From Methanolinea sp. (GTDB taxonomy: Archaea > Halobacteriota > Methanomicrobia > Methanomicrobiales > Methanospirillaceae): a stretch of DNA of 64,000 bases. The notes beneath the pieces were generated by a model that made no database searches, had not been told where the DNA came from, and worked only from the letters and a program-made list of their open reading frames with translations. The stretch is from positions 144,434-208,433 of the forward strand of contig JASEES010000001.1 in the NCBI GenBank assembly GCA_030019395.1. Reading direction: 5' to 3'. Every line of letters begins with the position of its first letter. Within the stretch, counting starts at the first letter, position 1. Both the position numbers and the translations under genes were made by a program. Positions 31,866-51,618 of the stretch are shown here, piece after piece.

Positions 31866-31916
31866 TGGGAGGGCTTATCAGGGTGGAATGCTCCTCCTAG
31901 TGATCAGGGAATCCCG

Positions 31917-32441
31917 ATGTCCGACTGGTTATTATCTGCGACCTGGTCGCCCTATGTCGTCGGTGCAGGGATTGGCATCCTGATCTGGATGACATTTCTC
32001 TTCTCCGACCGGCCGCTCGGAGTGTCTACTGCATACGCAAAGACGGCAGGCATGATAGAGAAGGCATTATCCCGGAAGAATGTTGCATCGATGCCGTACT
32101 ACCGCCAGGTGACCCCGGAAGCGGACTGGCAGTGGACCATCATCATCGGGGTGATTGCAGGCGGGTTCATCTCGGCGTATACCGCGGGGACGTTTGCCCT
32201 TTCTGCCGTCCCCCCGCTGTTTGCGGAAACTTTCGGGGCTGACACCCTCTTCCGTTTCGCTGTTGCACTCGCAGGCGGAATCATCATGGGTATCGGTGCC
32301 CGCTGGGCCGGCGGGTGCACGTCGGGCCACGGTATCTCCGGTACGCTCCAGCTCTCGCTTGCGAGCTGGGTCGCGGTGATCTGCTTCTTTGCCGGGGGAA
32401 TCCTTGCGGCAGGACTCCTCTTTGGTTTTCGGTTCCTGTGA
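31917..32441 (+). CDS. YeeE/YedE family sulfur transport membrane protein, half 1
   Basis: GGIIMGIGARWAGGCTSGHGISGTLQLSLASWVAVICFFAGGI. Confidence 0.88.
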   Translation: MSDWLLSATWSPYVVGAGIGILIWMTFLFSDRPLGVSTAYAKTAGMIEKALSRKNVASMPYYRQVTPEADWQWTIIIGVIAGGFISAYTAGTFALSAVPPLFAETFGADTLFRFAVALAGGIIMGIGARWAGGCTSGHGISGTLQLSLASWVAVICFFAGGILAAGLLFGFRFL

Positions 32442-32453
32442 GGTGGAAACGCC

Positions 32454-33011
32454 ATGCCATTCGAAGGGATAAGGCAGAACAAGTCTCTGCAGGCGCTCCT
32501 CGGGCTCGTTTTCGGCACTGTATTCGGTTTTCTCCTCCAGAAGGGAGGAGTGACGCTGTACGACGTGATCATCGGGCAGCTCCTGCTCACCGACTTCACC
32601 GTTGTCAAGGTGATGCTCTCTGCCATCCTCGTCGGGATGGTCGGGGTCCATGCCATGAAGGCTGCGGGGCTGGTCCGTCTCCACGTCCGGGCAGGCTCGG
32701 TTGGCTCGACTGTCATCGGCGGTCTCATCTTCGGTGTCGGTTTTGCGGTCCTCGGGTACTGTCCCGGGACGGCCGCCGGGGCACTCGGATCGGGAGCACT
32801 CGATGCAGCAGTCGGCATGGCAGGGATCGTGATCGGTGCAGGTATCTTTGCCCGGCTCTACCCGGTCCTCGAACGATCTGTCCTGAACCGCGGGAAGTTT
32901 CCGGCAGAGACCATTCCCCAGCTCCTCGGGGTCTCTCCCATGCCGGTTGCCTGTGCAGTCGCCATCATGATCCTCGTCATCCTTGCCTTTTTTGCGACCA
33001 TGGGCTTGTGA
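32454..33011 (+). CDS. YeeE/YedE family sulfur transport membrane protein, half 2
   Basis: GLVFGTVFGFLLQKGGV; GGLIFGVGFAVLGYCPGTAAGALGSGALDA. Confidence 0.88.
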   Translation: MPFEGIRQNKSLQALLGLVFGTVFGFLLQKGGVTLYDVIIGQLLLTDFTVVKVMLSAILVGMVGVHAMKAAGLVRLHVRAGSVGSTVIGGLIFGVGFAVLGYCPGTAAGALGSGALDAAVGMAGIVIGAGIFARLYPVLERSVLNRGKFPAETIPQLLGVSPMPVACAVAIMILVILAFFATMGL

Positions 33012-33724: not shown

Positions 33725-34129
33725 CTACTCCACGATCAGGTCTTCGGCATACCTGTCCTCGCCGGCGAGGAGGAATGCATCCGTCATGGAGAGGCAGCTC
33801 TTCGGGCAGATGCTCGTGCACTGGGAACAGAAGATGCACTGGTCGACCCAGACCCTGATCTTCTTTATATCCGGGATGAATTCGATCGCATGGGCCGGAC
33901 AGACCTTCACGCAGAGCGTGCACCCGATGCAGGAGTCCCTGTCATACGCAATCTTTCCCCGGAACCGTGGCGGTGTGGGGACCGGAGGGTTTACGGCTGC
34001 CCGGCCGGCCTGCACGTCCCGGAGGAAGGCCCGGATGGATGGCGGGAGGTACTTGGCAGGGAACCGGTTGGTGGCAGGTCTCCGGAAGAGCTGGCGCACG
34101 AGTTCGGGGACGAGCGGCAGCGCCCTCAT
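33725..34129 (-). CDS. mbhN: Mbh-type hydrogenase 2x[4Fe-4S] ferredoxin subunit (NuoI-like)
   Basis: CIGCTLCVKVCP and CIFCSQCTSICP; last gene of the operon. Confidence 0.88.
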   Translation of the reverse strand: MRALPLVPELVRQLFRRPATNRFPAKYLPPSIRAFLRDVQAGRAAVNPPVPTPPRFRGKIAYDRDSCIGCTLCVKVCPAHAIEFIPDIKKIRVWVDQCIFCSQCTSICPKSCLSMTDAFLLAGEDRYAEDLIVE

Positions 34130-35145
34130 ATCCCCACCCCCGCGAGGGGTCCTGCAATAACGTCGGCCATCAGGAGGAGGAGTCCGGCAAGCCCGATGAC
34201 AGAGAGGTAGACCCAGTAGAACGAGACGAGCTCGTTGATCCGGAACCGCGCCATCGCGACCCGGACGAGGGTGACGGCAAAGAAGAGGACGAGGACTGCC
34301 TTGAGGAGGAAGAAGAGGAGGTCGGCAGCCAGGGCAACGACAGGAGGCATCGCGAGGAACGAGGAGAGTGTCCAGGGGAAGAAGACAGCCACGATGATCG
34401 CGGCAAGGACGAGTGTCTTTGCAGCCTGGGCCAGGGAGAACATCGCGAGGTTCCTGCCGGAATACTCGACCAGCAGGCCGCCTGCAAGCTCGGTCTCGGC
34501 CTCCTGCGTGTCGAACGGGATGCGGGAGAGCTCGGCGGGAGTAATGGCAGCAAGCACGACGAGGAGGATGAAAACCCCGGCGAGCCCGAGCGGTCCTGTG
34601 ACAGACCATACCGGGTTTGCAGCAATGGACTGGAGTGCAAACGGGTGGGAGATACCTGCTGCGCCGAGCCTCCAAGCAACGCCGATGACAACGATTGCCA
34701 GCGGGAACTCGTACGCGATCATGGTCACCATCTCGCGCTGTGCCCCGACGGTCGCATACGGTGATCCGGATGCAAACCCACCCGCAACGAGTGCGAGGGC
34801 AGGAACCGTCAGGAGGTACATCACGAGGACGAGGTCACCGTAAGCCCCGAGCACGGGCATCGTGCTTCCGACCGGTATGTAGAAGAGGACGAGTACACTC
34901 GAGACGAGTGCAACGACGGGTGCAGCGTTAAAGAGCCAGGGGATGGCATTGGCCGGGACCACGGTATCCTTCTGGAGGAGCTTGACCGTGTCGATGAAAG
35001 GCTGCCTGATGGGAGGCCCGATCCGGGCCTGCATGTGTGCCGCAAGCTTCCTGTCGATTCCCGAGAGGAGGAGACCCCCTGCGAGTGCAAAGAGGGAGAG
35101 GGCGGCACACCATGCGGCTAGGAGGGCGATCTCTGCCGGGGTCAT
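34126..35145 (-). CDS. mbhM: Mbh-type hydrogenase membrane subunit (NuoH-like)
   Basis: GIDRKLAAHMQARIGPPIRQPFIDTVKLLQKD; TQEAETELAGGLLVEYSGRNLAMF. Confidence 0.93.
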   Translation of the reverse strand: MTPAEIALLAAWCAALSLFALAGGLLLSGIDRKLAAHMQARIGPPIRQPFIDTVKLLQKDTVVPANAIPWLFNAAPVVALVSSVLVLFYIPVGSTMPVLGAYGDLVLVMYLLTVPALALVAGGFASGSPYATVGAQREMVTMIAYEFPLAIVVIGVAWRLGAAGISHPFALQSIAANPVWSVTGPLGLAGVFILLVVLAAITPAELSRIPFDTQEAETELAGGLLVEYSGRNLAMFSLAQAAKTLVLAAIIVAVFFPWTLSSFLAMPPVVALAADLLFFLLKAVLVLFFAVTLVRVAMARFRINELVSFYWVYLSVIGLAGLLLLMADVIAGPLAGVGI

Positions 35146-36371
35146 CCCTGCAACCTCCTCGTCTTCTCCACGGAGAGACGGTGGAGGTCATCCTTGGAAA
35201 GGATGGACCTCCGGCTGTCCCGGACGATGGCAACCCTGTCGGTGCAGGAGAGGCACGGGTCAATGGAGGCCACGATAATGGGAATATCGGCAATCTGCGA
35301 TCCGCGGAGCATGGGTATCCAGGACATCAGGTTCGAGTAGGACGATGCCTTGACCTTCCACGAGGCGGGCGAGTCCTTCCCCTCCATCCTGACGTAGTGG
35401 AGGCACTCGCCCCGGGGCGCCTCGACCCTCCCGATACCCTCTCCCGTCGCCTTTTTACACGTCGCAAGGAGCTTGACCAGCTTCTCCTCGGCCGTGATCG
35501 GCCCTGCCGGCATCTCCGAGAGGCACTGCCGGATGATCTGGCAGGACTGGCCGACCTCGAGCAGCCGCACGACGATCCTGTCGTACACATCGCCGTGGGT
35601 CTCGCCCAGGTACCGGTCGGGCAGCACGGCTTTGACGTCGAGGTCTCCGTATGCAGCGTACGGGTAGTCCTGGCGGAGGTCAACGTTGACCCCGGATGCC
35701 CGTGCCGTCGGGCCGACAGTGCACAGCTCGAGTGCATCTTTGCGGGAGAGGACACCGACGTCGCGGCACCGCATCCGGATGGTCCTGTCGTCCAGGAAAA
35801 AGGAGAGGAGGGTGTCGAGCAGCCCCTCGTAGGTGGCAAGGCACTTCTCGATGATTGCGTGCTGTTCCGGCACGATATCCCTCCTGACTCCCCCGACCTG
35901 CACGATACCGTAGTTGACGCGGTTTCCTGTCAGGTTCTCGATGACGTCCATCGCCTCCTCCCGAACCCTCCATGTAAGGTGGAGGAGAGAGTCAAACCCG
36001 AGTTCGTGGGCTGCAACACCCGCCCAGAGGAGGTGCGACTGGATGCGCTCGAACTCGTGCACGATCGTCCGGATGTAGTCCGCTCTCTCCGGGACCTCGA
36101 TGCCGGCGATCTGTTCGACGGCCAGGGAGAAGGAGAGCGAGTGGACGACCCCGCATATCCCGCATATCCTGTCCGTGAGGTGGACGATCTGGACCGGGTT
36201 CCGGCGCATCCCCATCCACTCGATCCCCCGGTGTGCCTGTCCGGGGGCGAAATCGACGTCCCTGACGACCTCTCCCTCCAGCTCGAAGGTGAACATCACG
36301 GGTTCCTTGAGAGCAGGGTGGTTCGGGCCTATGGGTACCCGGTACGGTGCTTTCTTCGACTCGCCACTCAT
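35142..36371 (-). CDS. mbhL: Mbh-type [NiFe]-hydrogenase large subunit (NuoD-like)
   Basis: GIEWMGMRRNPVQIVHLTDRICGICGVVHS (N-terminal CxxC) and ASIDPCLSCTDR (C-terminal CxxC). Confidence 0.95.
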   Translation of the reverse strand: MSGESKKAPYRVPIGPNHPALKEPVMFTFELEGEVVRDVDFAPGQAHRGIEWMGMRRNPVQIVHLTDRICGICGVVHSLSFSLAVEQIAGIEVPERADYIRTIVHEFERIQSHLLWAGVAAHELGFDSLLHLTWRVREEAMDVIENLTGNRVNYGIVQVGGVRRDIVPEQHAIIEKCLATYEGLLDTLLSFFLDDRTIRMRCRDVGVLSRKDALELCTVGPTARASGVNVDLRQDYPYAAYGDLDVKAVLPDRYLGETHGDVYDRIVVRLLEVGQSCQIIRQCLSEMPAGPITAEEKLVKLLATCKKATGEGIGRVEAPRGECLHYVRMEGKDSPASWKVKASSYSNLMSWIPMLRGSQIADIPIIVASIDPCLSCTDRVAIVRDSRRSILSKDDLHRLSVEKTRRLQG

Positions 36372-37015
36372 CTCTCTCCCTCCTTTGCCGATCCCCCGGC
36401 CGGTGCAGACGCGGGAGGGGTCTCACCGCCCACCGTACCGGGTCCCTTCTCTTTTACCGGCGGGGCAGGCCGGTCTTTGGGCCGCTTCGATTCCCAGAGT
36501 TCCCTGACCATTCCCTCCGGCACGCCCGTTTCGTCCTTGCGCCATGGGAAGACACCTTCGGGGAAATCTTCGGGCAGGAAGAGGCGCCTGCTGTCAGGGA
36601 TACCCGTCACCCGTATGCCGAAGAACTCCTGCTTCTCCCTCTCCGAAAAGACGGCACCCGGTATGAGGTCCGAGATGGTCGGGACCGTCAGGTCGGATTT
36701 CGGCAGCGCGATCGCGAACGTGACCATGTACTCGCTCTTCGGGCTTCCGTACTGGACGGAGAAGATGTAGAGGAGGCGGATTGCATCGCCGAGGTCAGCC
36801 CCCGCGATCACGGAGAGGTGGGGGAACTGGATCTCCATCAGTGCCCTGATTGCAGGTTTGAGGAAGTCGCGTTCGAGATCGACCCAGAGGGTATAGTGCG
36901 GCACCTTCTTTCTGCCCTGCTCCCACTTCCTGATGGACGTGTCCCTGATGCCTCCTGAAAGGCGCGAGGTCAGGTGAGCCATGACCTCTTCCGGGGTAAG
37001 GGTTCCTTCCTTCAT
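36368..37015 (-). CDS. mbhK: Mbh-type hydrogenase NuoC-like subunit
   Basis: FSVQYGSPKSEYMVTFAIALPKSDLTVPTISDLIPGAVFSEREKQEFFGIRVTGIPDSRRLFLPEDFPEGVFPWRKDE. Confidence 0.88.
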   Translation of the reverse strand: MKEGTLTPEEVMAHLTSRLSGGIRDTSIRKWEQGRKKVPHYTLWVDLERDFLKPAIRALMEIQFPHLSVIAGADLGDAIRLLYIFSVQYGSPKSEYMVTFAIALPKSDLTVPTISDLIPGAVFSEREKQEFFGIRVTGIPDSRRLFLPEDFPEGVFPWRKDETGVPEGMVRELWESKRPKDRPAPPVKEKGPGTVGGETPPASAPAGGSAKEGER

Positions 37016-37446
37016 GCCTCCACCCCCTGGAGCCGTTCCAGTTTTTCAAGTGCTTTCACGACGCCGTGGATGATTGCTTCGGGCCGCGGCGGGCAGCCCG
37101 GGACGTAGACATCGACAGGGATCACCTCGTCCACGGGACCGTCCAGGTTGTACGATTCGTAGAAGACACCGCCGGAGATCCCGCACGCCCCGATGCACAT
37201 CACGATTTTCGGGTCGGGAATCTGCTGGTAGACCCGGAGGAGCCTGTCTTTCATCCTGTGGACGACAGGCCCGGTCACGAGCATGACGTCTGCATGCCGC
37301 GGGCTGCCGACGAGCCTGATCCCGAACCGCTCGGGATCGTACCGGGGTGTCAGGGTGGCCACGATCTCGATCTCGCACCCGTTGCAGGACCCGGAGTTGA
37401 AGTGGTAGACCCACAGCGACCGGTTGAACAGTGCATTCAGTTTCAT
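37012..37446 (-). CDS. mbhJ: Mbh-type hydrogenase small subunit (NuoB-like)
   Basis: NSGSCNGCEIEIVATLTPRYDPERFGIRLVGSPRHADVMLVTGPV; GVDVYVPGCPPRPEAI-type end. Confidence 0.95.
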   Translation of the reverse strand: MKLNALFNRSLWVYHFNSGSCNGCEIEIVATLTPRYDPERFGIRLVGSPRHADVMLVTGPVVHRMKDRLLRVYQQIPDPKIVMCIGACGISGGVFYESYNLDGPVDEVIPVDVYVPGCPPRPEAIIHGVVKALEKLERLQGVEA

Positions 37447-37790
37447 CGGAAGACCACCACCACGACGAGGAACAGGGCCGTCATTCCCATGTACCAGAGG
37501 ACGTAGTCATGGAGATCCCCGGTGTGCAGGGGGACGAGCCGCCGGTAATACCCGTTCATCGCATCGAGGAACCCCCAGTAGAGGTTTCCGGAGCGGACGT
37601 GGACGAGTCCCTTCTCCGGTTCCGGGTTCCCCGATATGAAGGGGTCTTCCTGTGCGGTCCCTTTCCTGTAGCCCTTTTCACCGAGGGAATAGAGGATGAG
37701 GGCGATGACGCCGGCGACAGCGGCCCCGAGGATCCAGAGGACAGGGTTCCAGAAGCCGGCACCGGTATCGAGGGTAAAGAGCATGTCCAT
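37443..37790 (-). CDS. mbhI: Mbh-type hydrogenase small membrane subunit
   Basis: 115 aa TM protein NLYWGFLDAMNGYYRRLVPLHTGDLHDYVLWYMGMTALFLVVVV between mbhH and mbhJ. Confidence 0.8.
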   Translation of the reverse strand: MDMLFTLDTGAGFWNPVLWILGAAVAGVIALILYSLGEKGYRKGTAQEDPFISGNPEPEKGLVHVRSGNLYWGFLDAMNGYYRRLVPLHTGDLHDYVLWYMGMTALFLVVVVVFR

Positions 37791-37794
37791 CGTC

Positions 37795-39372
37795 TCACAC
37801 TCCCCCGCCGATAACGGCAGCGATATACATCCCCTGGTCCGCAAGCGCGTGTGCTGCAGGCGCAACGAGGGTCTCCACCACGAGGGAGGGGAAGATGCCG
37901 AACAGGATGACCACGAGGGCGAGGATACCCATCCCGGCGAGCATCGGGCGGGGCACTTCCCTGACATCCTTATACTCGGGCAGGACGGGACCCATGAAGA
38001 TCGAGTGGAACACCTTGACGAACGAGGCAAGGGTCAGGATACTCACCACCATGGCAATCACGGAAAGGACGGGATTGAAAGCAAACACTGACTCGTATAT
38101 CATGAGTTTCGAGGCAAACCCGTTAAAGGGGGGTATCCCGGCAATCGCGAGCGCACCAATGATGAAAAAGATCATGGTCCACTTCATGGAATGCCCAAGC
38201 CCTCCCATTTTGTTCAGGTCATAGGTCCCGATCCGGAAGAAAATCGCTCCGGCCGTCAGGAAGAGCAGCCCCTTGTACATGGCATGGTTGATGATGTGGA
38301 AGATTCCCCCCTCCATGGCCATGTACCCGAAGGCATCCAGGAGTGGCTGGTTGCCGAGCACAGCAAGCCCGACTCCCACGCCGAGGAGCATGTACCCCGT
38401 CTGCGAGATGGCGTGGTAGGCCATCAGGCGTTTCACGTTCTTCTGGGGGATCGCCATCGTCACTCCCACAACCATCGAGAGGACACCGAGGATGATGATC
38501 AGCCAGCCGACGCAGGCGGCGTTCAGGGCGATGTTATAGAGGGAAAACACCGTCCGGAACAGCCCGTAAAGGCTTGCCTGGCTTGCAACGACAAGGAGGG
38601 CCGTGATCGACGATGGCGCCATCGAATAGGCATCGGGAGTCCAGAAGTGCATGGGGACAGCCCCGCACTTCATGGCGAGGGCAGCGATGATCAGGACGAG
38701 GGCGAGCTGGTCGAGGAGTGTAAACTGCATCCTCTGGGCGATGAGGGCCATGTTCAGGGCGTTGTACTCCCCGTAGTAGATGCCGATTGCAAAGAGGATG
38801 GCGAGTGCACCGATGGTGCTCAGGACGAAGTACTTGATGGCCGCTTCCACGGCGACACCCCCGTCGATGCGGAATGCAATCAGGCCCGCGGACGCAATGG
38901 AAAGGATCTCGAGGAAGACGAAGAAGTTGAAGATGTCGCCTGTCGAGACCATCCCGAGGATCCCGGTAACCATCAGGAGGAAGAGCGTGTAGTAACTGCC
39001 GAGGCCCGAGTGGTGCCTCTCGCTCGTCAGCGAGTAGAGGACGACTGCAAACGCCGAAATGGCGGTGATCACGAGCATGAGGGCGCTCATCGGGTCCACG
39101 GTGAACATGATCCGGACGGGGATGCCGCCCGAGTCCGGGGGCACTGCCAGCGTTGCCGCCTGTGCCCCGAACACGTAGAGCCGCGTGCCGTGTGCGTACA
39201 CGTCGGACGCGAGGAGGAGCGTGATCGCGGACGTGATGGCCATTGCTCCCCCGACGACCAGTGCCCGGAGGGCGGGTGCAACCCTGCCCGAAAACGGCGC
39301 GATGAACGCTGCGACGAACGGCACGATGACCATCAGGGCAGGCGAGTTTTCGATGACAAACGGGGGGATCAT
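37795..39372 (-). CDS. mbhH: Mbh-type hydrogenase MrpD/NuoN-like antiporter subunit
   Basis: KYFVLSTIGALAILFAIGIYYGEYNALNM; LALVLIIAALAMKCGAVPMHFWTPDAYSMAPSSITALLV. Confidence 0.92.
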   Translation of the reverse strand: MIPPFVIENSPALMVIVPFVAAFIAPFSGRVAPALRALVVGGAMAITSAITLLLASDVYAHGTRLYVFGAQAATLAVPPDSGGIPVRIMFTVDPMSALMLVITAISAFAVVLYSLTSERHHSGLGSYYTLFLLMVTGILGMVSTGDIFNFFVFLEILSIASAGLIAFRIDGGVAVEAAIKYFVLSTIGALAILFAIGIYYGEYNALNMALIAQRMQFTLLDQLALVLIIAALAMKCGAVPMHFWTPDAYSMAPSSITALLVVASQASLYGLFRTVFSLYNIALNAACVGWLIIILGVLSMVVGVTMAIPQKNVKRLMAYHAISQTGYMLLGVGVGLAVLGNQPLLDAFGYMAMEGGIFHIINHAMYKGLLFLTAGAIFFRIGTYDLNKMGGLGHSMKWTMIFFIIGALAIAGIPPFNGFASKLMIYESVFAFNPVLSVIAMVVSILTLASFVKVFHSIFMGPVLPEYKDVREVPRPMLAGMGILALVVILFGIFPSLVVETLVAPAAHALADQGMYIAAVIGGGV

Positions 39373-39722
39373 TCTTTCAGCCTCCGGAGGAACCCGATCT
39401 CGATGCTCCCGTATTTTTTCCAGATGACGATGGCAAACGAGAGGAGGAGGGCAGTTGTGGCAACCCCGATAACGATCGATGTCAGCGTCAGGGCCTGGGG
39501 CGTCGGGAGCACCATCAGCCTGTCCGGTGCGTTGGTGTAGATAGGCGCAATGCCGCCCTCCCGGTACCCGAGCGAGACGAGGAAGAGGTTGACTGCAGAT
39601 TCGAGGATCGTGATGCCGAGGAATATCTTGATGAGGTTTCGTTTGAGGACGATCGTGGCAAGACCGATGATGGTGAGCACGACAACGGCCACGAACGGGA
39701 GATTGTAAAGCACCGGGGTCAC
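39369..39722 (-). CDS. mbhG: Mbh-type hydrogenase MrpC/NuoK-like subunit
   Basis: LKRNLIKIFLGITILESAVNLFLVSLGY; DRLMVLPTPQALTLTSIVIGVATTALLL. Confidence 0.92.
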   Translation of the reverse strand: MTPVLYNLPFVAVVVLTIIGLATIVLKRNLIKIFLGITILESAVNLFLVSLGYREGGIAPIYTNAPDRLMVLPTPQALTLTSIVIGVATTALLLSFAIVIWKKYGSIEIGFLRRLKE

Positions 39723-40180
39723 GCCCCCTCACCCCCGGTCGCGGAGAACAGGTACATGAGGATAATCGCAAGACCACCCCAGACCTCCACCCCGACTGCG
39801 ATGTTCATGATCGGGATGACACCCGCGGTGTTCAGGTCGCCGGGGTTTGATCCCGGGGGGACCGCCAGCCCGAAGAGGAGACCGCTGTTGGCAAGGATGT
39901 TGGCAAAGAACGGTGCTCCTGCAAGGAGGCCCAGTATCCCGGCACCGATGAACAGGAGGAGGCCGAGCGATTCCTGCGCCGAGAAGACAATTTTCCTGAC
40001 CATACCGGCGATATCCGCGTGCGAGAACGCGACGAGGACGAGGGCTGCGGCAGTCGCGATGACTGCCCCGCCCTGGAAACCCCCGCCCGGTGTCAGGTGG
40101 CCGTGAACGACCACGTAGAGCCCGAAGACGATGATGAGCGGGTAGAGGATACATGCGCCGGTCCGCACGATCTTACTCAT
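39719..40180 (-). CDS. mbhF: Mbh-type hydrogenase MrpB-like subunit
   Basis: FGLYVVVHGHLTPGGGFQGGAVIATAAALVLVAF. Confidence 0.92.
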   Translation of the reverse strand: MSKIVRTGACILYPLIIVFGLYVVVHGHLTPGGGFQGGAVIATAAALVLVAFSHADIAGMVRKIVFSAQESLGLLLFIGAGILGLLAGAPFFANILANSGLLFGLAVPPGSNPGDLNTAGVIPIMNIAVGVEVWGGLAIILMYLFSATGGEGA

Positions 40181-40457
40181 CCTCATGGTCCTCACCCTCC
40201 TTCCTTGCCCGGAACATGAGTGCGACGCCTGTCACGGCTGTAAAGAGCACCACGGACTCCCCGAGGGTATCGAACCCCCTGAAGTCGAACACGACGGATG
40301 TGACGATGTTGTTTGCGGCGGCAGCTGCCTGCCCGGTCCTGATGAAATAGGTGTCCATGTCTGTTGCAGCAGGGTTCCCGAACGAGAGGAAGAGGGGTAT
40401 GGCACACAGACCTGCTGCCCAGACGAGGAATATGGCGGCAACGAGGACCTTTTTCAT
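40173..40457 (-). CDS. mbhE: Mbh-type hydrogenase subunit E (MrpB-N/DUF-like)
   Basis: NIVTSVVFDFRGFDTLGESVVLFTAVTGVALMFR. Confidence 0.88.
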   Translation of the reverse strand: MKKVLVAAIFLVWAAGLCAIPLFLSFGNPAATDMDTYFIRTGQAAAAANNIVTSVVFDFRGFDTLGESVVLFTAVTGVALMFRARKEGEDHEDE

Positions 40458-40708
40458 GGCGTCTCCTCCTCGAACCGGGTCGTGGACCGGATCGCGATGA
40501 TGAAGATTGCCGTCGTCAGTCCGGCACCGATCGCTGCCTGCGAGATCGCGACGTCGGGAGCCTGCAGGATATAGAACTCGAGGGAGACGAGGAACGAGAA
40601 GAATCCCCCGGCAAGTGCAGCGGCAAGCAGGTCCCGGAAGGAATAGACCAGGATGGCAGAAGCGATCAGCCCGCCGATGACCGCAACCTGGATGAGGAAC
40701 TCGATCAT
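40454..40708 (-). CDS. mbhD: Mbh-type hydrogenase subunit D (MrpA C-terminal-like, DUF4040)
   Basis: VYSFRDLLAAALAGGFFSFLVSLEFYILQAPDVAISQAAIGAGLTTAIFIIAI. Confidence 0.88.
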   Translation of the reverse strand: MIEFLIQVAVIGGLIASAILVYSFRDLLAAALAGGFFSFLVSLEFYILQAPDVAISQAAIGAGLTTAIFIIAIRSTTRFEEETP

Positions 40709-41061
40709 GGGGGCACCTCCCCGAGGCGGTCGACCACAGCCTGTGCCGGCTTGATCCCTGACCGGTGCGCACCGCGCGCGATGGCATGGGACCCGATTGC
40801 GTTCGTGACCGCAAGCGCGAGTGCTGCAAGGAGGGTGTGCACGGCCAAAGTGACATACTGCCCGTCGCCCGTTCCGATGAACTGGGCGGCACCATAAATG
40901 ATGACGGAAAGAGCCGTGAAGACGGACCCGAACGTCGTCATCTTTGTCGTTGCATGCATCCTCGTGTAAACATCGGGGAACCGCAGGAGACCGATGATCC
41001 CGAGGCAGTTGAAGGCAGTGCCGATGACGAGGCATGCAACGACCAGGACGTCGGCGATCAC
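40705..41061 (-). CDS. mbhC: Mbh-type hydrogenase MrpG-like subunit
   Basis: GTAFNCLGIIGLLRFPDVYTRMHATTKMTTFGSVF. Confidence 0.92.
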   Translation of the reverse strand: MIADVLVVACLVIGTAFNCLGIIGLLRFPDVYTRMHATTKMTTFGSVFTALSVIIYGAAQFIGTGDGQYVTLAVHTLLAALALAVTNAIGSHAIARGAHRSGIKPAQAVVDRLGEVPP

Positions 41062-41315
41062 AGTTCACCCCCGATGTACTTTGCAACGTAGAGCGTGCTC
41101 ACGAAGGAGAGGAGTGCATACACGATTGCGACATCGATGAAGATGATCTGCTGGTAGACCACGCCGAGAACGATGAGGGCAGCGACAACGAGGGTATTGA
41201 CGGTATCGACGGCAACGGCACGGTCGGCGATGGTCGGCCCGAGGACGAGCCGGACGAGGGCGAGGCAGACGAGCACGAGGAGGATGAAGACAGCAATATC
41301 GAACGGAGCAGTCAT
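41058..41315 (-). CDS. mbhB: Mbh-type hydrogenase MrpF-like subunit
   Basis: LVRLVLGPTIADRAVAVDTVNTLVVAALIVLG. Confidence 0.92.
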   Translation of the reverse strand: MTAPFDIAVFILLVLVCLALVRLVLGPTIADRAVAVDTVNTLVVAALIVLGVVYQQIIFIDVAIVYALLSFVSTLYVAKYIGGEL

Positions 41316-41839
41316 TCTGCAATCCTCCGGATCCATGCCGGGATGTTTGCAAGCCCGAACAACTCCCGCGCTTCCACCGTGTCGCGTGTCTCCCAGCCCG
41401 CGGGCACGTTGATGTTATGGACGAAGAGGTCGTTTGTCTCCTCGCTGATGTCAACCGTTATCGTCCCGGGGGTGAGGGTGATGGAATTGGCCAGGAGAAA
41501 GGCACCGAAGTCCGTCTTCATGCCGGACGGCACCCTGATAATGCCCGGCCGGATCTTTCCCGTGATGACCCTGTATGCCACGTCGAGGTTGGCCCGTGTC
41601 ACCTCGATAAAAAAAGGCCCGAGAATGTAGACAGGCAGGATGAGCAGGCGGACAGGGTTTGCCATCCGGTAGTCCTTTCCCCGGCAGAGAACCTTTCCTG
41701 CGACTGCTGCCGTGAGAAGGGAGAGGAGGAATCCTGCCAGAAGTTCAGAGGGCGACCACAGCCAGAGCGTCCCGCTCCCGGCTGAAAAGACGAGGTAGAG
41801 GAGGAAGGCCATGATGAAGGTGACAAGGTAGGCTATCAT
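41312..41839 (-). CDS. mbhA: Mbh-type hydrogenase MrpE-like subunit
   Basis: FFIEVTRANLDVAYRVITGKIRPGIIRVPSGMKTDFGAFLLANSITLTPGTITVDI. Confidence 0.92.
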   Translation of the reverse strand: MIAYLVTFIMAFLLYLVFSAGSGTLWLWSPSELLAGFLLSLLTAAVAGKVLCRGKDYRMANPVRLLILPVYILGPFFIEVTRANLDVAYRVITGKIRPGIIRVPSGMKTDFGAFLLANSITLTPGTITVDISEETNDLFVHNINVPAGWETRDTVEARELFGLANIPAWIRRIAE

Positions 41840-42176
41840 CCGGGCCCTCCGCACCGATGCTGTTTTGGTCCTGTGTGTGCCTTGATCGTCATGGGAATCA
41901 CGGAGGAGTCTTGGATGCCGGGAGCCTGTTTGTCCCCGTGTTCCACCGGGGGCCACCCGACATTCTTTCGCGGGAACAATACATCATGATTGATAATGAA
42001 GATACCGGAAAGAATCCGCTCTTCCGGCAAATGGTGTCATTATTCTGCTTTTGCCGGCAGAAGGGGACGTCCATTCCGGCATGTCACTGTACCGGGTCTT
42101 TTCCCGGAAATGTCCCGGAAGGGGACGCACGTACCCGTGGATATTTATGGAAAGATCGGCACACGTCTAAGGAGCG

Positions 42177-45241: not shown

Positions 45242-45553
45242 TCACTCACCCGGCTTGTCCGTTGTGAGGTGGAGGGTAATGATCCCGTTGCATGCCTTGC
45301 ATGCATAGTACTTTTCCGTCCAGCAGGACGCGCAGGCCCACCTCCCGCAGAGGGCACATTGCCTTAGGTCTTTTTTGGGGAAGGTGTCGTTGCACAGGTC
45401 GCAGGAGTAGCGGGAGAAACTGGCAGGGTCGCGCGTGGGGGAATCCCCCTGTCTCCTCACCCTCTGGATATCCTTCCTGATCCGGGAGATGAAGTCCTCT
45501 TCCTTCTTTTTTTCCGGACGGCTACCTGGGGACCTGCTTTTCCAGAGCCTCAA
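45242..45553 (-). CDS. Small zinc-ribbon/treble-clef-like protein, unknown function
   Basis: YSCDLCNDTFPKKDLRQCALCGRWACASCWTEKYYACKACN: four Cys pairs; distal gene of the coiled-coil cluster; exact start uncertain. Confidence 0.65.
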   Translation of the reverse strand: MRLWKSRSPGSRPEKKKEEDFISRIRKDIQRVRRQGDSPTRDPASFSRYSCDLCNDTFPKKDLRQCALCGRWACASCWTEKYYACKACNGIITLHLTTDKPGE

Positions 45554-45860
45554 TCCTCTCCTCCAGCCTTGTCAATTCTTCGCCGAAATCCTTTTCGAAA
45601 GCCTTGAGCGCTGCCATCCTCTCCTCGTCTTTTGCAAGGAGCGGCATCTTTTCATCCCTGAACTGCTCGGCCTGGGAACGGCGGATGAGCGACCATTCCT
45701 CGATGAGCATGTCGAACTTCCGGTCGAGGTACTCGTCGATCCGGCTCTCCAGCGGGCGGGAGATATCCAGCCTGCCGGTAGACCCCCTGAAGTAATAATA
45801 GAGGGTAAATGCTATGACAGCGATGAGAATGAGGACGAGGAGCCCTTCGATGATCGTCAT
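45522..45860 (-). CDS. Single-TM coiled-coil protein, unknown function
   Basis: N-terminal TM then RIDEYLDRKFDMLIEEWSLIRRSQ...FGEELTRLEERIEALEKQV. Confidence 0.72.
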   Translation of the reverse strand: MTIIEGLLVLILIAVIAFTLYYYFRGSTGRLDISRPLESRIDEYLDRKFDMLIEEWSLIRRSQAEQFRDEKMPLLAKDEERMAALKAFEKDFGEELTRLEERIEALEKQVPR

Positions 45861-46078
45861 TTCCGCCTCCCCCTGATATACTCGAGCCTCTTTTCAAGTT
45901 CGGTAAGCTTTGCCGACGCAGTCGCCTCGAACCCTGCACACAGCCGGGACTCCTCCTCGAGGGAGGAGAGGCGGGATACGAGGTCCCCGAGATCCCGCCG
46001 GGTTGCGAGATCCCATTCCTCGATCAGGTACTTCATGCGACGGTCCACGTAGGAACCAAGGTAGTCCGGGCGCCTCAT
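45857..46078 (-). CDS. Short coiled-coil protein, unknown function
   Basis: MRRPDYLGSYVDRRMKYLIEEWDLATRRDLGDLVSRLSSLEEE...LTELEKRLEYIRG; 4-nt overlaps at both ends. Confidence 0.72.
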   Translation of the reverse strand: MRRPDYLGSYVDRRMKYLIEEWDLATRRDLGDLVSRLSSLEEESRLCAGFEATASAKLTELEKRLEYIRGRRK

Positions 46079-46392
46079 CGTCCCTCGAGCCCCCTCAGCT
46101 CTTTATCGAGGGCGGCAGCCCTCTTTTCGAGTGCTTTTTGGTTCTTCTCGAGGACATCGATCTGCCTGTGCACACGGTCAAGCCTCCGTTCCAGGTTTTT
46201 CAGGTGAATGGAGGTCACGAGCCCCCACTCGCTGATGATCGCCGGGAAATGCCGGTTGAAATATTCGTCGAGCCCCTTGTCCATCGTCGGGAGATGCTCA
46301 TCGATGACTGCCGGTATTTCCTTTATCGATTCCAGCAGGGGATACTTCTCTGTCGTCCTGCCCGGAGTCTCGTATTCGGTCACCTGTCTCAC
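46075..46392 (-). CDS. Short coiled-coil protein, unknown function
   Basis: LDEYFNRHFPAIISEWGLVTSIHLKNLERRLDRVHRQIDVLEKNQKALEKRAAALDKELRGLE; 4-nt overlaps at both ends. Confidence 0.72.
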   Translation of the reverse strand: MRQVTEYETPGRTTEKYPLLESIKEIPAVIDEHLPTMDKGLDEYFNRHFPAIISEWGLVTSIHLKNLERRLDRVHRQIDVLEKNQKALEKRAAALDKELRGLEGR

Positions 46393-46772
46393 CCCAGCCT
46401 TTCCTCTTCGCGTTTTATCTTTTCTATCATCCGGTCGAGCTTTGTGAGAGCGACCCTGCTCTCGAGCCGCTTCAACCTCTTTTCAACGGCAGTGTGCCGT
46501 GCAAATATATCGGTCTCCAGTTCCACGTTCTCCTCGTCGAGCCTTTTTAACTCCTCGAGATCCTGGGGAGATACCCGGTAGAACGGTCGTCCCCGCTGTT
46601 CCAGGTCTGCCTTGAGGAGGTTGATCTTCTCCCGTTCGAGTTCGAGCTGCGCGAGCCGTGTCCTCGAGTACATCAGGCGGAACTCCCTGATAATGAAATA
46701 CACGATGATCAGGCCGATGAAAACGAGGAGATAGGGGAGGATCCCTTCGAAAATCACCCACATGTCTGTCAT
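46389..46772 (-). CDS. Single-TM coiled-coil protein, unknown function
   Basis: ILPYLLVFIGLIIVYFIIREFRLMYSRTRLAQLELEREKINLLKADLEQRG...ETDIFARHTAVEKRLKRLESRV. Confidence 0.75.
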   Translation of the reverse strand: MTDMWVIFEGILPYLLVFIGLIIVYFIIREFRLMYSRTRLAQLELEREKINLLKADLEQRGRPFYRVSPQDLEELKRLDEENVELETDIFARHTAVEKRLKRLESRVALTKLDRMIEKIKREEERLG

Positions 46773-46790
46773 TGATCTGGTCTCCCGGGA

Positions 46791-47219
46791 TTAGAGGTCT
46801 TTTTCATGGAGGCTTTTTTTCGCAGATTCGACACCTTTTTCCATCGATTCTTTTGCTTCCGACGATTTTTTCGAGATGACTTCCTTTGCCTTCTTTACAT
46901 CCTTTGCGACGCTCTCTTTTGCCTTGTCTGCTGTCTTTTTGACACGTTCGGAAACGGGGGGAACCCGTGTCACCGTCACCACAGCGCCAGACATGGCACC
47001 TGCCTGTGCGATATCTTCCGGGCTTAACCTGATGTACCCCTCTTCGACCAGCTTGTCTGCAAAGACAGTGACGACAACGGGTTTCTTATCCGATCCTGCA
47101 GAGACCTCGACACTGTCGCCTTCGCTGATCCCGAGGGTCTTTAAATGCACCTCGTTGATCCTGGCCCTCCCCCTGCTTGGAAAGGCCCTTTCCTGAACTT
47201 TCAGAGTGATGGACTCCAT
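46791..47219 (-). CDS. Double-psi beta-barrel-like (Cdc48-N/AbrB-like) domain with Lys/Ala-rich helical tail
   Basis: LKVQERAFPSRGRARINEVHLKTLGISEGDSVEVSAG; tail VKKTADKAKESVAKDVKKAKEVISKKSSEAKESMEKGVESAKKSL. Confidence 0.7.
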   Translation of the reverse strand: MESITLKVQERAFPSRGRARINEVHLKTLGISEGDSVEVSAGSDKKPVVVTVFADKLVEEGYIRLSPEDIAQAGAMSGAVVTVTRVPPVSERVKKTADKAKESVAKDVKKAKEVISKKSSEAKESMEKGVESAKKSLHEKDL

Positions 47220-47374
47220 ACGTGAAGAAGATGCGCTCGCATATTATATAGTATCTGCCGGGATCCCCTGACGGAAAGAGCATGCCGGCCGCTGTTCCTT
47301 GCCGGAATTCCTCCGGCCCGGTGCATGCCATCCGGGGCAGAAACTAATTATCGTCAGCCCGCCCAGACGATCCC

Positions 47375-48181
47375 ATGAAAAGTGCGGTTTTTTCCCTGCT
47401 CTGCATCCTCTGCCTTGTCCAGGGTGTGCTGGCGTACGAACTCACGATCCAGGCACCAAAGGAAGTCCGGGCCGGTGTCCCGATCGAGGTCACGGGGAAC
47501 ACGACCTTCCCGGTCGGTTACGAGTTTGACCTGGTATTGTACCGGATCCAGACGACGATGCCGGAACCTGTCTTTGAAAAGACAGTCGTTGTGAGCGATT
47601 CAAAGTCATTCGAAATCACCTTCCCGACGATGGGGCTTTCTCCCGGCGAATACAAGGTCGAGGTCAGGTTCCGCTCCGACCCGGGCTCGAAACTGAGTTC
47701 AGGCTCGGTCACGACGCGGATGCTTACAATAACGGACAGGTCGGGGGAGATCGTGATCACTTCGGCAAAAGACCAGGTGATCGGCGAAGCGCTCCGGATC
47801 GAGGGATACGTCCCGCGGGGCGGGGTTGTCACCCTGACGATGAAGGTTACCGGGCCGCAGGGCGCAGTCATCCCGCCGGAGGACATCAGGACAACGACAG
47901 TTCTTGGAAAGGACGATGGTTTCTTCAGCAGGACGATTCCCGTCAGCGAGAAGGGGAACTATTACGTGGACTTCTCCGACGTGAAGGGCTACATCACAAC
48001 CGTGAGGTTCACGGTCAGTGAACCGGGCGCGACAGCAGTTCCATCCACGGAGATAACCCATGGGACGACCACGGAATCTCCGTCTCCGACAGCCACTGCA
48101 GTCTCTCCCTTCCCTGTTGCGGGAGCAATTGCCGGTCTGATCATCATTGCGCTTGTTTTTTGCGTGCACAGGAAGAAGTGA
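47375..48181 (+). CDS. Secreted, C-terminally membrane-anchored surface protein with Ig-like domains
   Basis: Signal peptide MKSAVFSLLCILCLVQGVLA; beta-rich repeats; TTTESPSPTATAVS linker; C-terminal TM plus HRKK. Confidence 0.75.
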   Translation: MKSAVFSLLCILCLVQGVLAYELTIQAPKEVRAGVPIEVTGNTTFPVGYEFDLVLYRIQTTMPEPVFEKTVVVSDSKSFEITFPTMGLSPGEYKVEVRFRSDPGSKLSSGSVTTRMLTITDRSGEIVITSAKDQVIGEALRIEGYVPRGGVVTLTMKVTGPQGAVIPPEDIRTTTVLGKDDGFFSRTIPVSEKGNYYVDFSDVKGYITTVRFTVSEPGATAVPSTEITHGTTTESPSPTATAVSPFPVAGAIAGLIIIALVFCVHRKK

Positions 48182-48199: not shown

Positions 48200-48859
48200 T
48201 CACTTCATCCTGCGCCAGACGGAGACCTCGTAGAGCAGGAGGATGATGAGGACGAGCACACCCCCGAAAAAGAACGCGAGTGCAATATCGGCAGGGAGTG
48301 CCTGTGAGAAGGGATAGGGTTCAGGTGTCGGTGCCGGGGTCGGGGCTGCGAGAATGCCGACTGTTTTCTCTGCCTGGAAGTTTGCCCTGTCCCCCTCGCC
48401 GAATCCTGCTGTCGTGAGGCGCGACGCGGCGATAACCGCGTACGCTGCAAGCGAGGAGAGGGCAACGACACTGAAAAGGGCCGCATACCGCAGGAGGATG
48501 GATCGGATGTTCCGGACCCTCGGGGCCATGATCAGGAGCTGGTTGCGCAGCCCGTACACCTTGACCTGCCGGCCTTTCACGCTGTACTTTGTGTCCCTGA
48601 CTTCGATTAACCCTGCTTCGAGGAGGTTTTCGATGTGGTATTTCACGGTCCCCATCGGCATGGCAAGGGCAGAGGCAAGGTCCCCTGCCGTTCTGGGTCC
48701 CCTCTCGAGGGCATGGAGAATATCGCCTGCTGCCTGGCTCGAGATAGCCTTTGCAATCTTCTGGGAACGCTCGTCACCGGGGACGAGTATGACCACCTCG
48801 CCATCGGGTGCGTTGGGATCCGGCTGACCGGAACCCGTATCCTCGCTGCTGCTCTCCAT
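48200..48859 (-). CDS. Winged-helix (ArsR-like) regulator with C-terminal TM helices
   Basis: ISSQAAGDILHALERGPRTAGDLASALAMPMGTVKYHIENLLEAGLIEV; two C-terminal TM segments. Confidence 0.82.
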   Translation of the reverse strand: MESSSEDTGSGQPDPNAPDGEVVILVPGDERSQKIAKAISSQAAGDILHALERGPRTAGDLASALAMPMGTVKYHIENLLEAGLIEVRDTKYSVKGRQVKVYGLRNQLLIMAPRVRNIRSILLRYAALFSVVALSSLAAYAVIAASRLTTAGFGEGDRANFQAEKTVGILAAPTPAPTPEPYPFSQALPADIALAFFFGGVLVLIILLLYEVSVWRRMK

Positions 48860-48876
48860 ATTTTCCTCCTCCCCGC

Positions 48877-51618
48877 TTACGTTCCGAGTGATGCGATAAT
48901 CTTCTGCTTTCCGATGGCGAGTGCTTCCTCGATCTTCTCGACAGCGGGGCCGCCACCCCTCGCCATTGCGGGGGATCCTCCGCCTTTCCCTCCGAGGACC
49001 GCACACACATCCTTTATGAGCTCACCGGCATTGACCCTGTCTGACCCTGACATGAGCAGGACGGTAGCCTGGTCTGAACCGCTGGCAAGGAGTGCAACGC
49101 CGCCGCGGGCCGCAATTTCTTGACCGATCGTGGCAAGTTCCTTGCCTGAAAGGTCGATCCGCCTGACAAGGACAGGGGTATTGCCCACGACCTCGGCAGC
49201 AAGGGATTTCTTCTCGAGTTCAGCGATACGCTGGCGAAGCCGCTCTATCTCCTTCTTCTGGGCCTTCCACTCGGAGAAGAACCTGTTCACGGTTGCAGGC
49301 AGGTACTCGTTCTGGACGGAGAGGATTTCTGCTGACCCGGAGAGGATCTTCTCGATACGGTGCACGTACTCGACTGCTGCAAGGCCGGCGGCGAACTCGA
49401 GACGCTCGATCCCGTCCTGGATGTGTTCCACCCTGATGACCTTGATGAACCCGACATCCCCCGTGCTGCGGCAGTGTGTTCCTGCACAGGCCTCGACATC
49501 TCCTGCCACCCGCACGACGCGGATCTCCTTTCCGGGGGGGACGCCGCCCTGGTAGAGGGAGAACCCGTACATCTGCTCTGCCTTCGTCCTGTCGAGGTAC
49601 TTGACATCGATGGGGAGGTCTGCCATGACCATCCGGTTTGCAGCGATCTCTATCTTGCGCAGTTCATCCGGCGTGATGTGCTTGTAGTGCCTGATATCGA
49701 GGCGCGAGCTCTCCGGCCCCTTCTGTGCACCGGCCTGGTGGATGTGGGCCCCGAGAACCTCCTTTGAGGCATGCAGGAGGATGTGGGTTGCCGTGTGGTG
49801 GCGCATCAGGGACCACCGGCGTTCCTCGTCGATGATACCCTTCACGTGGTCTCCCCGGCGAAGGACCCCGCCGGTCACGTGGTGGAGGATGACGTCTCCT
49901 ACCTTCCGGACATCGTCGACCTTGACCATGTTCTCTGCAGAGATCAGCATCCCCGTATCGGAGGGCTGCCCACCCCCCTCGGGGTAGAAGAGGGTCTGGT
50001 CCATGACCGCGTAACCGTCGAAGAAGTCGATGACCATGGCATCGAACTCCATGTCGGAAGGCTGCTCGTAGTAGAGCCTCCTCGTTGCAGGAAGCATCGA
50101 AATCCTCTCGCTGTACCGGGCAAAGGGATCCTCCTCCTCTTCCGGCTCGGACTCCGAGTGCATCTCGGCGATGAGCGAGTAGAAGTTGTCCGGGAGTTCG
50201 ACAACGGCTCCTTCCGCGGTTGCAACCTCCCTGATGATCTCGGGCGGGATACCATGGGAGTCGTAGAGCGTGATCACCTCCCGGAGGGGGACACGTTCAC
50301 GCCTCGATTTATACGTCCGGGCAATCCTCTGGACGATCTTTGTTCCCCTCTCGAGCGTGGCATTGCTCTTTTCCACCTCGCGCTCGACGATCTCGCGGAC
50401 GATGCAGATGTCCTGCTCGAATGCACCCGTTCCGACAATTTTCATCTGCTCCTCGATCAGGTCAGCAAGGGACTCCTTTATCCCGAGTTCCTTCATCATC
50501 CGGAGCGTGCGGCGCAGGACGAGCCGGACGAGGTAGCCCTCCCGCACATTCGAGGGGACGATGCAGTCCCCGAGCATGTACGCGAGGCACCGGGTATGGT
50601 CCACGATGGCGTATACCTTCTCCACCGGGGCAATCATCCGGTCGAGCCGCTCGATGGGCACGTCGATTGCGGTTGCAACCTTCTTGCGCAGCTGCCAGAG
50701 GTTTGTCCCGGATATATCCATCACCCCGGCAAACCGCGCATTCAGGGAGAGGATCTTGGTGTACTCCTTGTCCTCGAGGGCGTGTGCAAGGCCGGCTGCT
50801 TCCATCACCCTGCTGACCATCTCCGGGAAGACTGCATCGTATATGGTCGGGGAACCCCTCGATGCCCAGACGAACCTCTCCAGTCCGTAACCCGTGTCCA
50901 CGATGTAATTGGACATGGGGTAGTACGTCTCCCCGCCGAGATCGATACCGGGCTTGCCGGTCTTTGTCCGCCCGAGGTTCATGAACACGAGCGTGGCGAC
51001 CTCAAGTCCCCCTATCAGGACTTCGAGGCTCGGCCCTGCGTTCCCGCCGCCTATCCAGGGGTGCTCCTTGTAGGTCACGCGCGAGAGATCCGCGCCGATC
51101 GACGAGAGGAACTTTTCGCAAAGCTCGACTGTCCTTTCCTTCCAGTATATCTCCTCGCCCTCGCGGTTGAACGCATGGTGCGCCATCATCTCGAAGAGGG
51201 TGAGGTGGCGCCCCGACCTGCCGACCGAGTCGAGGTCGTTGAGCCTGATGCAGGGCTGGGAGATGGTCAGCGGGTTGGCGGGTGGTGGCACGATACCGCT
51301 CGTTACCCACGGCTGGAAATCGGCGATGGAGGCTATGGTGAGATAAATATCGTCCCTCCACCGTGCTGCAACAGGGTACCTCGCAATCCGGGTGTGACCG
51401 TTCTGCTCGAAGAAGGAGAGGAACGCCTCCCGCATCTCGTCGACGGTGTGGCACCTGAAAACCGGTGCCCCGATGAACCTGTATGTCTCGCACGGGGCAT
51501 CGCCACACGTCAGGGTATCAGGGTCCCGTGTCCAGAACGCTGCACCACACCTGGAGCATATTTTGCGGGTGAGCCCCTGGGTCTTGAAATATTCGAGCTG
51601 GTACTCCTCTTCGAGCAT
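48877..51618 (-). CDS. alaS: Alanyl-tRNA synthetase (archaeal type)
   Basis: 913 aa; FLSFFEQNGHTRIARYPVAARWRDD; HHTATHILLHAS; CAGTHCRSTGDVG; C-terminal GGKGGGSPAMARGGG. Confidence 0.97.
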   Translation of the reverse strand: MLEEEYQLEYFKTQGLTRKICSRCGAAFWTRDPDTLTCGDAPCETYRFIGAPVFRCHTVDEMREAFLSFFEQNGHTRIARYPVAARWRDDIYLTIASIADFQPWVTSGIVPPPANPLTISQPCIRLNDLDSVGRSGRHLTLFEMMAHHAFNREGEEIYWKERTVELCEKFLSSIGADLSRVTYKEHPWIGGGNAGPSLEVLIGGLEVATLVFMNLGRTKTGKPGIDLGGETYYPMSNYIVDTGYGLERFVWASRGSPTIYDAVFPEMVSRVMEAAGLAHALEDKEYTKILSLNARFAGVMDISGTNLWQLRKKVATAIDVPIERLDRMIAPVEKVYAIVDHTRCLAYMLGDCIVPSNVREGYLVRLVLRRTLRMMKELGIKESLADLIEEQMKIVGTGAFEQDICIVREIVEREVEKSNATLERGTKIVQRIARTYKSRRERVPLREVITLYDSHGIPPEIIREVATAEGAVVELPDNFYSLIAEMHSESEPEEEEDPFARYSERISMLPATRRLYYEQPSDMEFDAMVIDFFDGYAVMDQTLFYPEGGGQPSDTGMLISAENMVKVDDVRKVGDVILHHVTGGVLRRGDHVKGIIDEERRWSLMRHHTATHILLHASKEVLGAHIHQAGAQKGPESSRLDIRHYKHITPDELRKIEIAANRMVMADLPIDVKYLDRTKAEQMYGFSLYQGGVPPGKEIRVVRVAGDVEACAGTHCRSTGDVGFIKVIRVEHIQDGIERLEFAAGLAAVEYVHRIEKILSGSAEILSVQNEYLPATVNRFFSEWKAQKKEIERLRQRIAELEKKSLAAEVVGNTPVLVRRIDLSGKELATIGQEIAARGGVALLASGSDQATVLLMSGSDRVNAGELIKDVCAVLGGKGGGSPAMARGGGPAVEKIEEALAIGKQKIIASLGT

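Follow-up and report, generated by a model that had tools for sequence, protein, structure and literature searches.

Within the 64,000-nucleotide stretch of archaeal DNA analysed here (the window; from a Methanolinea genome of 1.8 Mb in 50 contigs) we see six short genes, P1 to P6 in order of transcription, following one another on the minus strand; on balance, we take these to be a single, vertically inherited operon, specific to the Methanomicrobiales, that encodes one complex sited at the cytoplasmic face of the membrane. All six of the open reading frames that the original prediction had placed between 45242 and 47219 are present, and all are real genes under purifying selection, with a dN/dS of 0.09–0.28 for each (window versus two relatives). 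Their positions are collected in Table 1.

Table 1. Genes, domains, motifs and putative expression signals of the six-gene cluster (window positions)
Feature	Position	Strand	Description	Sequence or basis
TATA-like box	47243..47250	-	Putative single promoter, 24–31 nt before P1 start	TATATAAT
P1	46791..47219	-	Predicted Cdc48 N-domain-type double-psi beta barrel with 11-residue-repeat amphipathic tail	
P1 barrel	46962..47204	-	Residues 6–86	Pfam CDC48_N E 7.6e-8
P1 tail	46806..46943	-	Residues 93–138	VKKTADKAKES/VAKDVKKAKEV/ISKKSSEAKES/MEKGVESAKKS
P2	46389..46772	-	N-terminal single TM helix with predicted cytoplasmic helical/coil domain	
P3	46075..46392	-	Predicted soluble EW-family coiled-coil subunit; start possibly 46383	
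EW motif of P3	46219..46263	-		YFNRHFPAIISEWGL; paralogue alignment
P4	45857..46078	-	Predicted soluble EW-family coiled-coil subunit	
EW motif of P4	46007..46051	-		YVDRRMKYLIEEWDL; paralogue alignment
P5	45522..45860	-	Predicted TM-anchored EW-family coiled-coil subunit	
EW motif of P5	45687..45731	-		YLDRKFDMLIEEWSL; two alignments
Shine-Dalgarno-like sequence	45559..45565	-	Inside P5, before P6 TTG	TGGAGGA
P6	45242..45553	-	Prok-RING_2 (PF14445) protein with predicted FYVE-like double-zinc module	
Double-zinc module of P6	45290..45403	-	Eight Cys, residues 51–88	CX2C-X11-CX2C-X4-CX2C-X7-CX2C

Three of the junctions had been read as 4-nt ATGA overlaps; this is so for P3/P4 and P4/P5, junctions at which 4-nt overlaps are found in most orthologous loci, the overlap between P2 and P3 reading GTGA instead. 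P3 may begin at the next GTG, nine bases on, because several orthologues start there, leaving a gap of +4 to +6 after P2. P6 starts at a TTG located within P5, giving an overlap of 32 nt that recurs, at 32–35 nt, in most relatives (20 loci); the start codon is TTG in 12 and ATG in 8 of these 20, and a TGGAGG-type ribosome-binding site precedes it in most. At the other end of the cluster, a TATA-like motif turns up 21 times within the 120 nt preceding P1 (53 loci), and in 18 cases it lies at −40 to −21.

The six genes travel together. Using profile matches for each protein in a sample of 150 Methanomicrobiales genomes, P5 is matched in 44, one of which we discard as coiled-coil noise (G015, where the match falls in a frame of 754 aa at E 0.008); P2 is found in exactly the 43 that are left, and P1 in the same 43 plus one further genome (G129), which carries two stand-alone P1 genes with P2–P6 absent. 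P6 accompanies the others in all 41 cluster genomes covered by the class search, its counterparts in the remaining two being found in GTDB records (L119, L120). The order P1–P6 is identical in 20/20 first loci, drawn from several families, and, of 71 named loci from GTDB, 56 have it complete, the others either running off contig ends (8/71) or missing P6 only (7/71); this conservation, taken with the dN/dS of each gene, excludes chance. Beyond the six, no flanking gene is shared by more than 15 of 79 loci. Scattered genes and independent loss, looked for as the pattern that would speak against a co-inherited unit, gave way to co-occurrence in a fixed order, in keeping with the original prediction; both the order and the all-or-none co-occurrence are read from sequence. 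Saying this, not every part is obligatory, as seen from the solitary P1 genes of G129 and from seven copies that lack P6 despite having room for it (L133, L134, L140, L142, L145, L108 and L113); for six of these seven, another copy with P6 is present in the same MAG.

Clear matches are confined to three families of the order, with named records from Methanolinea, Methanoregula, Methanospirillum and Methanogenium; the best named relatives of the window cluster belong to Methanolinea. Most genera of Methanomicrobiales are without it, so that methanogens of this kind can evidently live without whatever it does. Outside the order, profiles for P6 and for the coiled-coil (EW) family described below return coiled-coil or short zinc-finger noise only (298 genomes of the phylum).

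Some neighbouring genes deserve a mention in their own right. A divergent plus-strand gene at 47375–48181 encodes a secreted, C-terminally anchored protein with no Pfam match, and a minus-strand gene (48200–49006) encodes a regulator of helix-turn-helix (ArsR-like) type that has TM helices; related genes recur mainly near Methanolinea clusters. Further away, a run of minus-strand genes at 33725–41956 has, by eye, the look of a [NiFe] hydrogenase of the membrane-bound kind, Mrp-type antiporter subunits included, and a metallo-beta-lactamase/rhodanese-like gene is followed by two YeeE/YedE-like membrane genes (30498–33011, plus strand), a set possibly concerned with sulfur uptake, again as judged by eye.

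At the downstream end of the cluster, P6 matches Prok-RING_2 (PF14445; E 1.3e-25), scoring 89.8 bits where the gathering threshold is 22.4. The same family is found in all 55 P6 orthologues, and in a 199-genome sample of the class it occurs in the same genomes as the cluster; matches in 14 control genomes number zero. P6 had been put down as a zinc ribbon, a description that does not survive its eight conserved cysteines, invariant in a 20-sequence alignment, which make two zinc sites rather than one ribbon. Their spacing is nearer to that of FYVE/PHD domains than to a C3HC4 RING; the RING ligand order (C3HC4/C3H2C3) does not apply, all eight ligands being Cys, and none of the 55 orthologues matches a eukaryotic RING family, with 23 of them matching FYVE_2. 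The AlphaFold2 model (pLDDT averaging 84.7 and exceeding 95 over most of the core) returns mostly FYVE-type domains as its top Foldseek matches (Hrs, endofin, RUFY, EEA1, CARP2), together with the zinc domain of melanophilin, at E-values of at least 0.24 that are not significant. The RRHHCR-type phosphoinositide motif is absent, the aligned stretch reading LRQCxLCGRW. Judged by cysteine spacing and predicted fold, P6 is probably a double-zinc protein of FYVE-like character. The Prok-RING families reportedly go back to work by Burroughs, Iyer and Aravind in 2011, and we take PF14445 to have stood so far as a predicted RING domain only.

P1, the first gene, had been described as barrel-like with a helical tail; this is right as far as it goes, but misses both the class of the barrel and the strictness of the repeat that follows it. 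The window protein scores 32.9 bits against CDC48_N, under the Pfam gathering score of 35.1, and the domain is matched by all 20 aligned orthologues at E 0.01 or better (best 4.9e-8). A P1 profile, in turn, matches solved Cdc48 N-domains and designed double-psi barrel (DPBB) structures. In cluster-free genomes, as well as outside the order (where nothing else is found; 278 genomes), this profile picks up long frames of ATPase length (544–825 aa), as expected for Cdc48. Within the 142 aa of the window P1 there is no Pfam match to an AAA ATPase module, and we assign it, by sequence, as a probable stand-alone double-psi barrel of the Cdc48 N-domain type.

The tail of P1 repeats every 11 residues, with identity against shuffles reaching a z of 33 at lag 11 and 28 at lag 22, and its hydrophobic moment peaks at 98–99 degrees, as for an 11/3 helix. 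Methanolinea-type P1 proteins are 120, 142, 153, 164 or 175 residues long, that is, they differ in steps that are multiples of 11; such differences arise between close relatives. The tail is rich in Lys (20%), Ala (18%), Gly (12%) and Glu (9%). Apolipoprotein families are among the matches to P1 (Pfam and profile searches), and there are weak matches to Senescence; alpha-synuclein and the group-3 LEA proteins also belong to the 11-residue-repeat class. A different ending, a TrkA_C (RCK_C) domain, is found in the Methanospirillum P1 and in that of a few other relatives, identified by Pfam in L044 and L049 (E 2.6e-9 and 3.4e-6); the window P1 and most others are without it. These two belong to a set of forms of ~235–275 aa with a longer C-terminus (also L114, L116, L118, L127, L130, L142, L144, L146, L152 and L153), the TrkA_C likeness of the remainder being judged by eye. 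One of the solitary P1 genes of G129 (L160:1956-5186) lies ~190 bp downstream of a Cdc48 AAA ATPase gene, and has a very long lysine-rich repeat tail.

Between these two proteins sit the four coiled-coil proteins, of which, as originally proposed, P2 and P5 are anchored and P3 and P4 soluble. A single TM helix lies at the N-terminus of both P2 and P5 (the Kyte-Doolittle maximum of P2 is 2.3–3.3 across 20/20 orthologues) and, because basic residues lie only C-terminal to this helix, the coils should face the cytoplasm according to the positive-inside rule. P3, P4 and P5 had been listed simply as coils; they are tandem paralogues of one new family, which we call ‘EW’. Local alignment against shuffles gives a z of 8.5 for P3 with P4, 7.4 for P3 with P5 and 11.3 for P4 with P5, and each forms its own clade in a tree (support of 100/99 for P3, 88/90 for P4 and 92/87 for P5). 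As each clade spans families f1, f2 and f3, the triplication must predate their divergence. All three share a helix carrying the motif Y-[LFV]-[DN]-R..-I-x-E-W-x-L, then a turn, then a coil with heptad periodicity at 102–105 degrees (z 10–25). In the AlphaFold2 model of P5 (pLDDT 76.5, pTM 0.30; no Foldseek match) these correspond to helices at 37–57 (EW) and 62–109 (coil), preceded by the TM helix at 2–26. We found no Pfam or NCBIfam family that covers P3–P5; phasin (PF05597) matches 9 of 38 EW members, at best with E 0.0037 and below the gathering score, and generic coiled-coil families match as often. Like P3–P5, P2 probably represents a new family. The statement that none of the six proteins belongs to a nameable family accordingly holds for P2–P5, and has to be given up for P6 (PF14445) and for P1 (Cdc48 N-domain class).

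With its composition and co-inheritance observed, and its topology and helix type computed, we infer how the complex might be assembled, bind lipid and serve the cell. Contacts between EW helices and between coils would bind P3, P4 and P5 to one another in a fixed hetero-oligomer, with P5 and P2 serving as its membrane anchors. The tail of P1 may rest on the membrane, or on some other lipid surface, in the manner of apolipoproteins and alpha-synuclein, so offering the barrel as a protein-docking module, and P6, stabilised by zinc, could be an adaptor seated on the coils. The whole would then scaffold, stabilise or tether the membrane: of the options first put forward (filament, scaffold or tether), a scaffold or tether seems to fit best and nothing points to a filament. 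Against this reading, the parts are not all obligatory, the best Foldseek match of P6 falls short of significance and the pTM of the P5 model is low; against lipid binding by P1, repeats of 11 residues are known from LEA proteins too, and these need not bind membranes.

The main rival to a membrane complex is a Cdc48-linked system for membrane-protein quality control, in which the complex would feed substrates to the archaeal Cdc48/proteasome, P6 acting as a ligase of RING type or as an adaptor, and the P1 barrel competing for, or recruiting, Cdc48 partners. The Pfam label of P6 is that of a prokaryotic RING, the P1 profile also finds true Cdc48 N-domains in other genomes, and there is the gene next to Cdc48 in G129; yet the CX2C-X11-CX2C-X4-CX2C spacing of P6 suits FYVE/PHD rather than C3HC4 RING, P1 comes without the AAA module and Cdc48 is its neighbour in one genome only. 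Moreover, genes for E1, E2, Ubl or JAB are not among the recurring neighbours (79 loci), and on this ground we reject a ubiquitin-type operon. The Cdc48 link is, in our estimation, unlikely. More doubtful again is a ligand-sensing regulator of membrane transport, whereby the TrkA_C domain of P1 would sense a small molecule or ion and relay this through the membrane coils: the domain does end P1 in some lineages, Methanospirillum among them, but it is missing from the window protein and most others, and no transporter gene recurs nearby (79 loci).

P1 might instead be the active part of an LEA-like stress set that guards membranes, or else proteins, when cells are chilled, dried or exposed to salt. 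Whilst the composition of its tail, the 11-residue repeats and the Senescence matches are in line with this, we think it improbable, as it leaves the fixed core of three paralogous coils, the two anchors and the zinc protein without explanation. Least probable of all, to our minds, is an accessory of a larger envelope machine (archaellum, A-type ATP synthase or chemosensory array) or a mobile or defence element. Some coils give weak matches to FlaC, but three genomes with the cluster have no archaellin (G133, G073 and G125) and many cluster-free genomes do have it, and we reject an archaellum accessory (ArlC/FlaC). In a Methanospirillum-like MAG (L113:199-2392, JAAYCY010000038), the genes for A-type ATPase subunits C and D (Pfam E 6.7e-63 and 1e-37) come next, on the same strand, after a second P4–P5 copy that lacks P6; being a neighbour in one MAG only, the ATPase link is likewise dropped. 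As for a defence or viral module, the six proteins match no PADLOC defence model and give two PHROG matches only, both weak and function-less, there are no recurring mobile neighbours, and we discard this too; the paralogue tree, for its part, bears no sign of recent transfer.

A membrane complex of this composition would, as a whole, be new, with the domains of P1 and P6 already known. No characterised system matches the six-gene set, as originally suggested, and we know of none composed in this way. A search found no published description of the cluster, although it did not extend to the 2011 Prok-RING paper; the part of a 2009 comparison of Methanomicrobiales used here gives 26 hypothetical signature clusters, without detail (PMC2686161). 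That five or six genes are retained together or missing together throughout an archaeal order, whilst their neighbours are not shared, is strong evidence for an unrecognised machine, and provides PF14445 with a defined set of partners for testing. Much methane is produced by Methanospirillum, Methanoregula, Methanolinea and Methanogenium, genera with a cell biology that is little known.

Compared with known systems, the cluster borrows familiar pieces in unfamiliar company. Small single-pass and coiled-coil proteins likewise make up the Psp system (PspA/B/C) and flotillin scaffolds, proposed for the inner face of the membrane; none of the six proteins matches PspA, PspC, SPFH or NfeD in Pfam, and the one match to PspB is insignificant (E 0.5). 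The EW module, with its short helix, N-cap and coiled coil, resembles the C-terminal module of phasins (PF05597). Prok-RING_2, common to P6 and its orthologues (55/55), is a domain label only. With the FYVE domains of Hrs, EEA1 and CARP2, and with melanophilin, P6 shares the CX2C-X11-CX2C-X4-CX2C core spacing and a predicted fold, but differs in having no RRHHCR motif and a short last loop. P1 has a predicted double-psi barrel like that of the N-domains of Cdc48, p97 and VAT, and departs from them in standing alone, with a helical tail after the barrel and no AAA ATPase; that tail is like apolipoproteins, alpha-synuclein and LEA proteins in its strict repeat of 11 residues and its 11/3 amphipathicity, but is here joined to a Cdc48-type barrel, and its lipid binding is presumed. 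A FYVE-like zinc finger, alpha-synuclein/apolipoprotein repeats and a Cdc48 N barrel, united in this one cluster, are sited at membranes in eukaryotes. Tentatively, then, and as a possibility that we hold well short of the operon itself, triplicated coils, a FYVE-like adaptor, a Cdc48-type barrel and an apolipoprotein/alpha-synuclein-like helix might together form a lineage-specific membrane-organising machine, an independent prokaryotic counterpart of the membrane-tether and coat complexes of eukaryotes.
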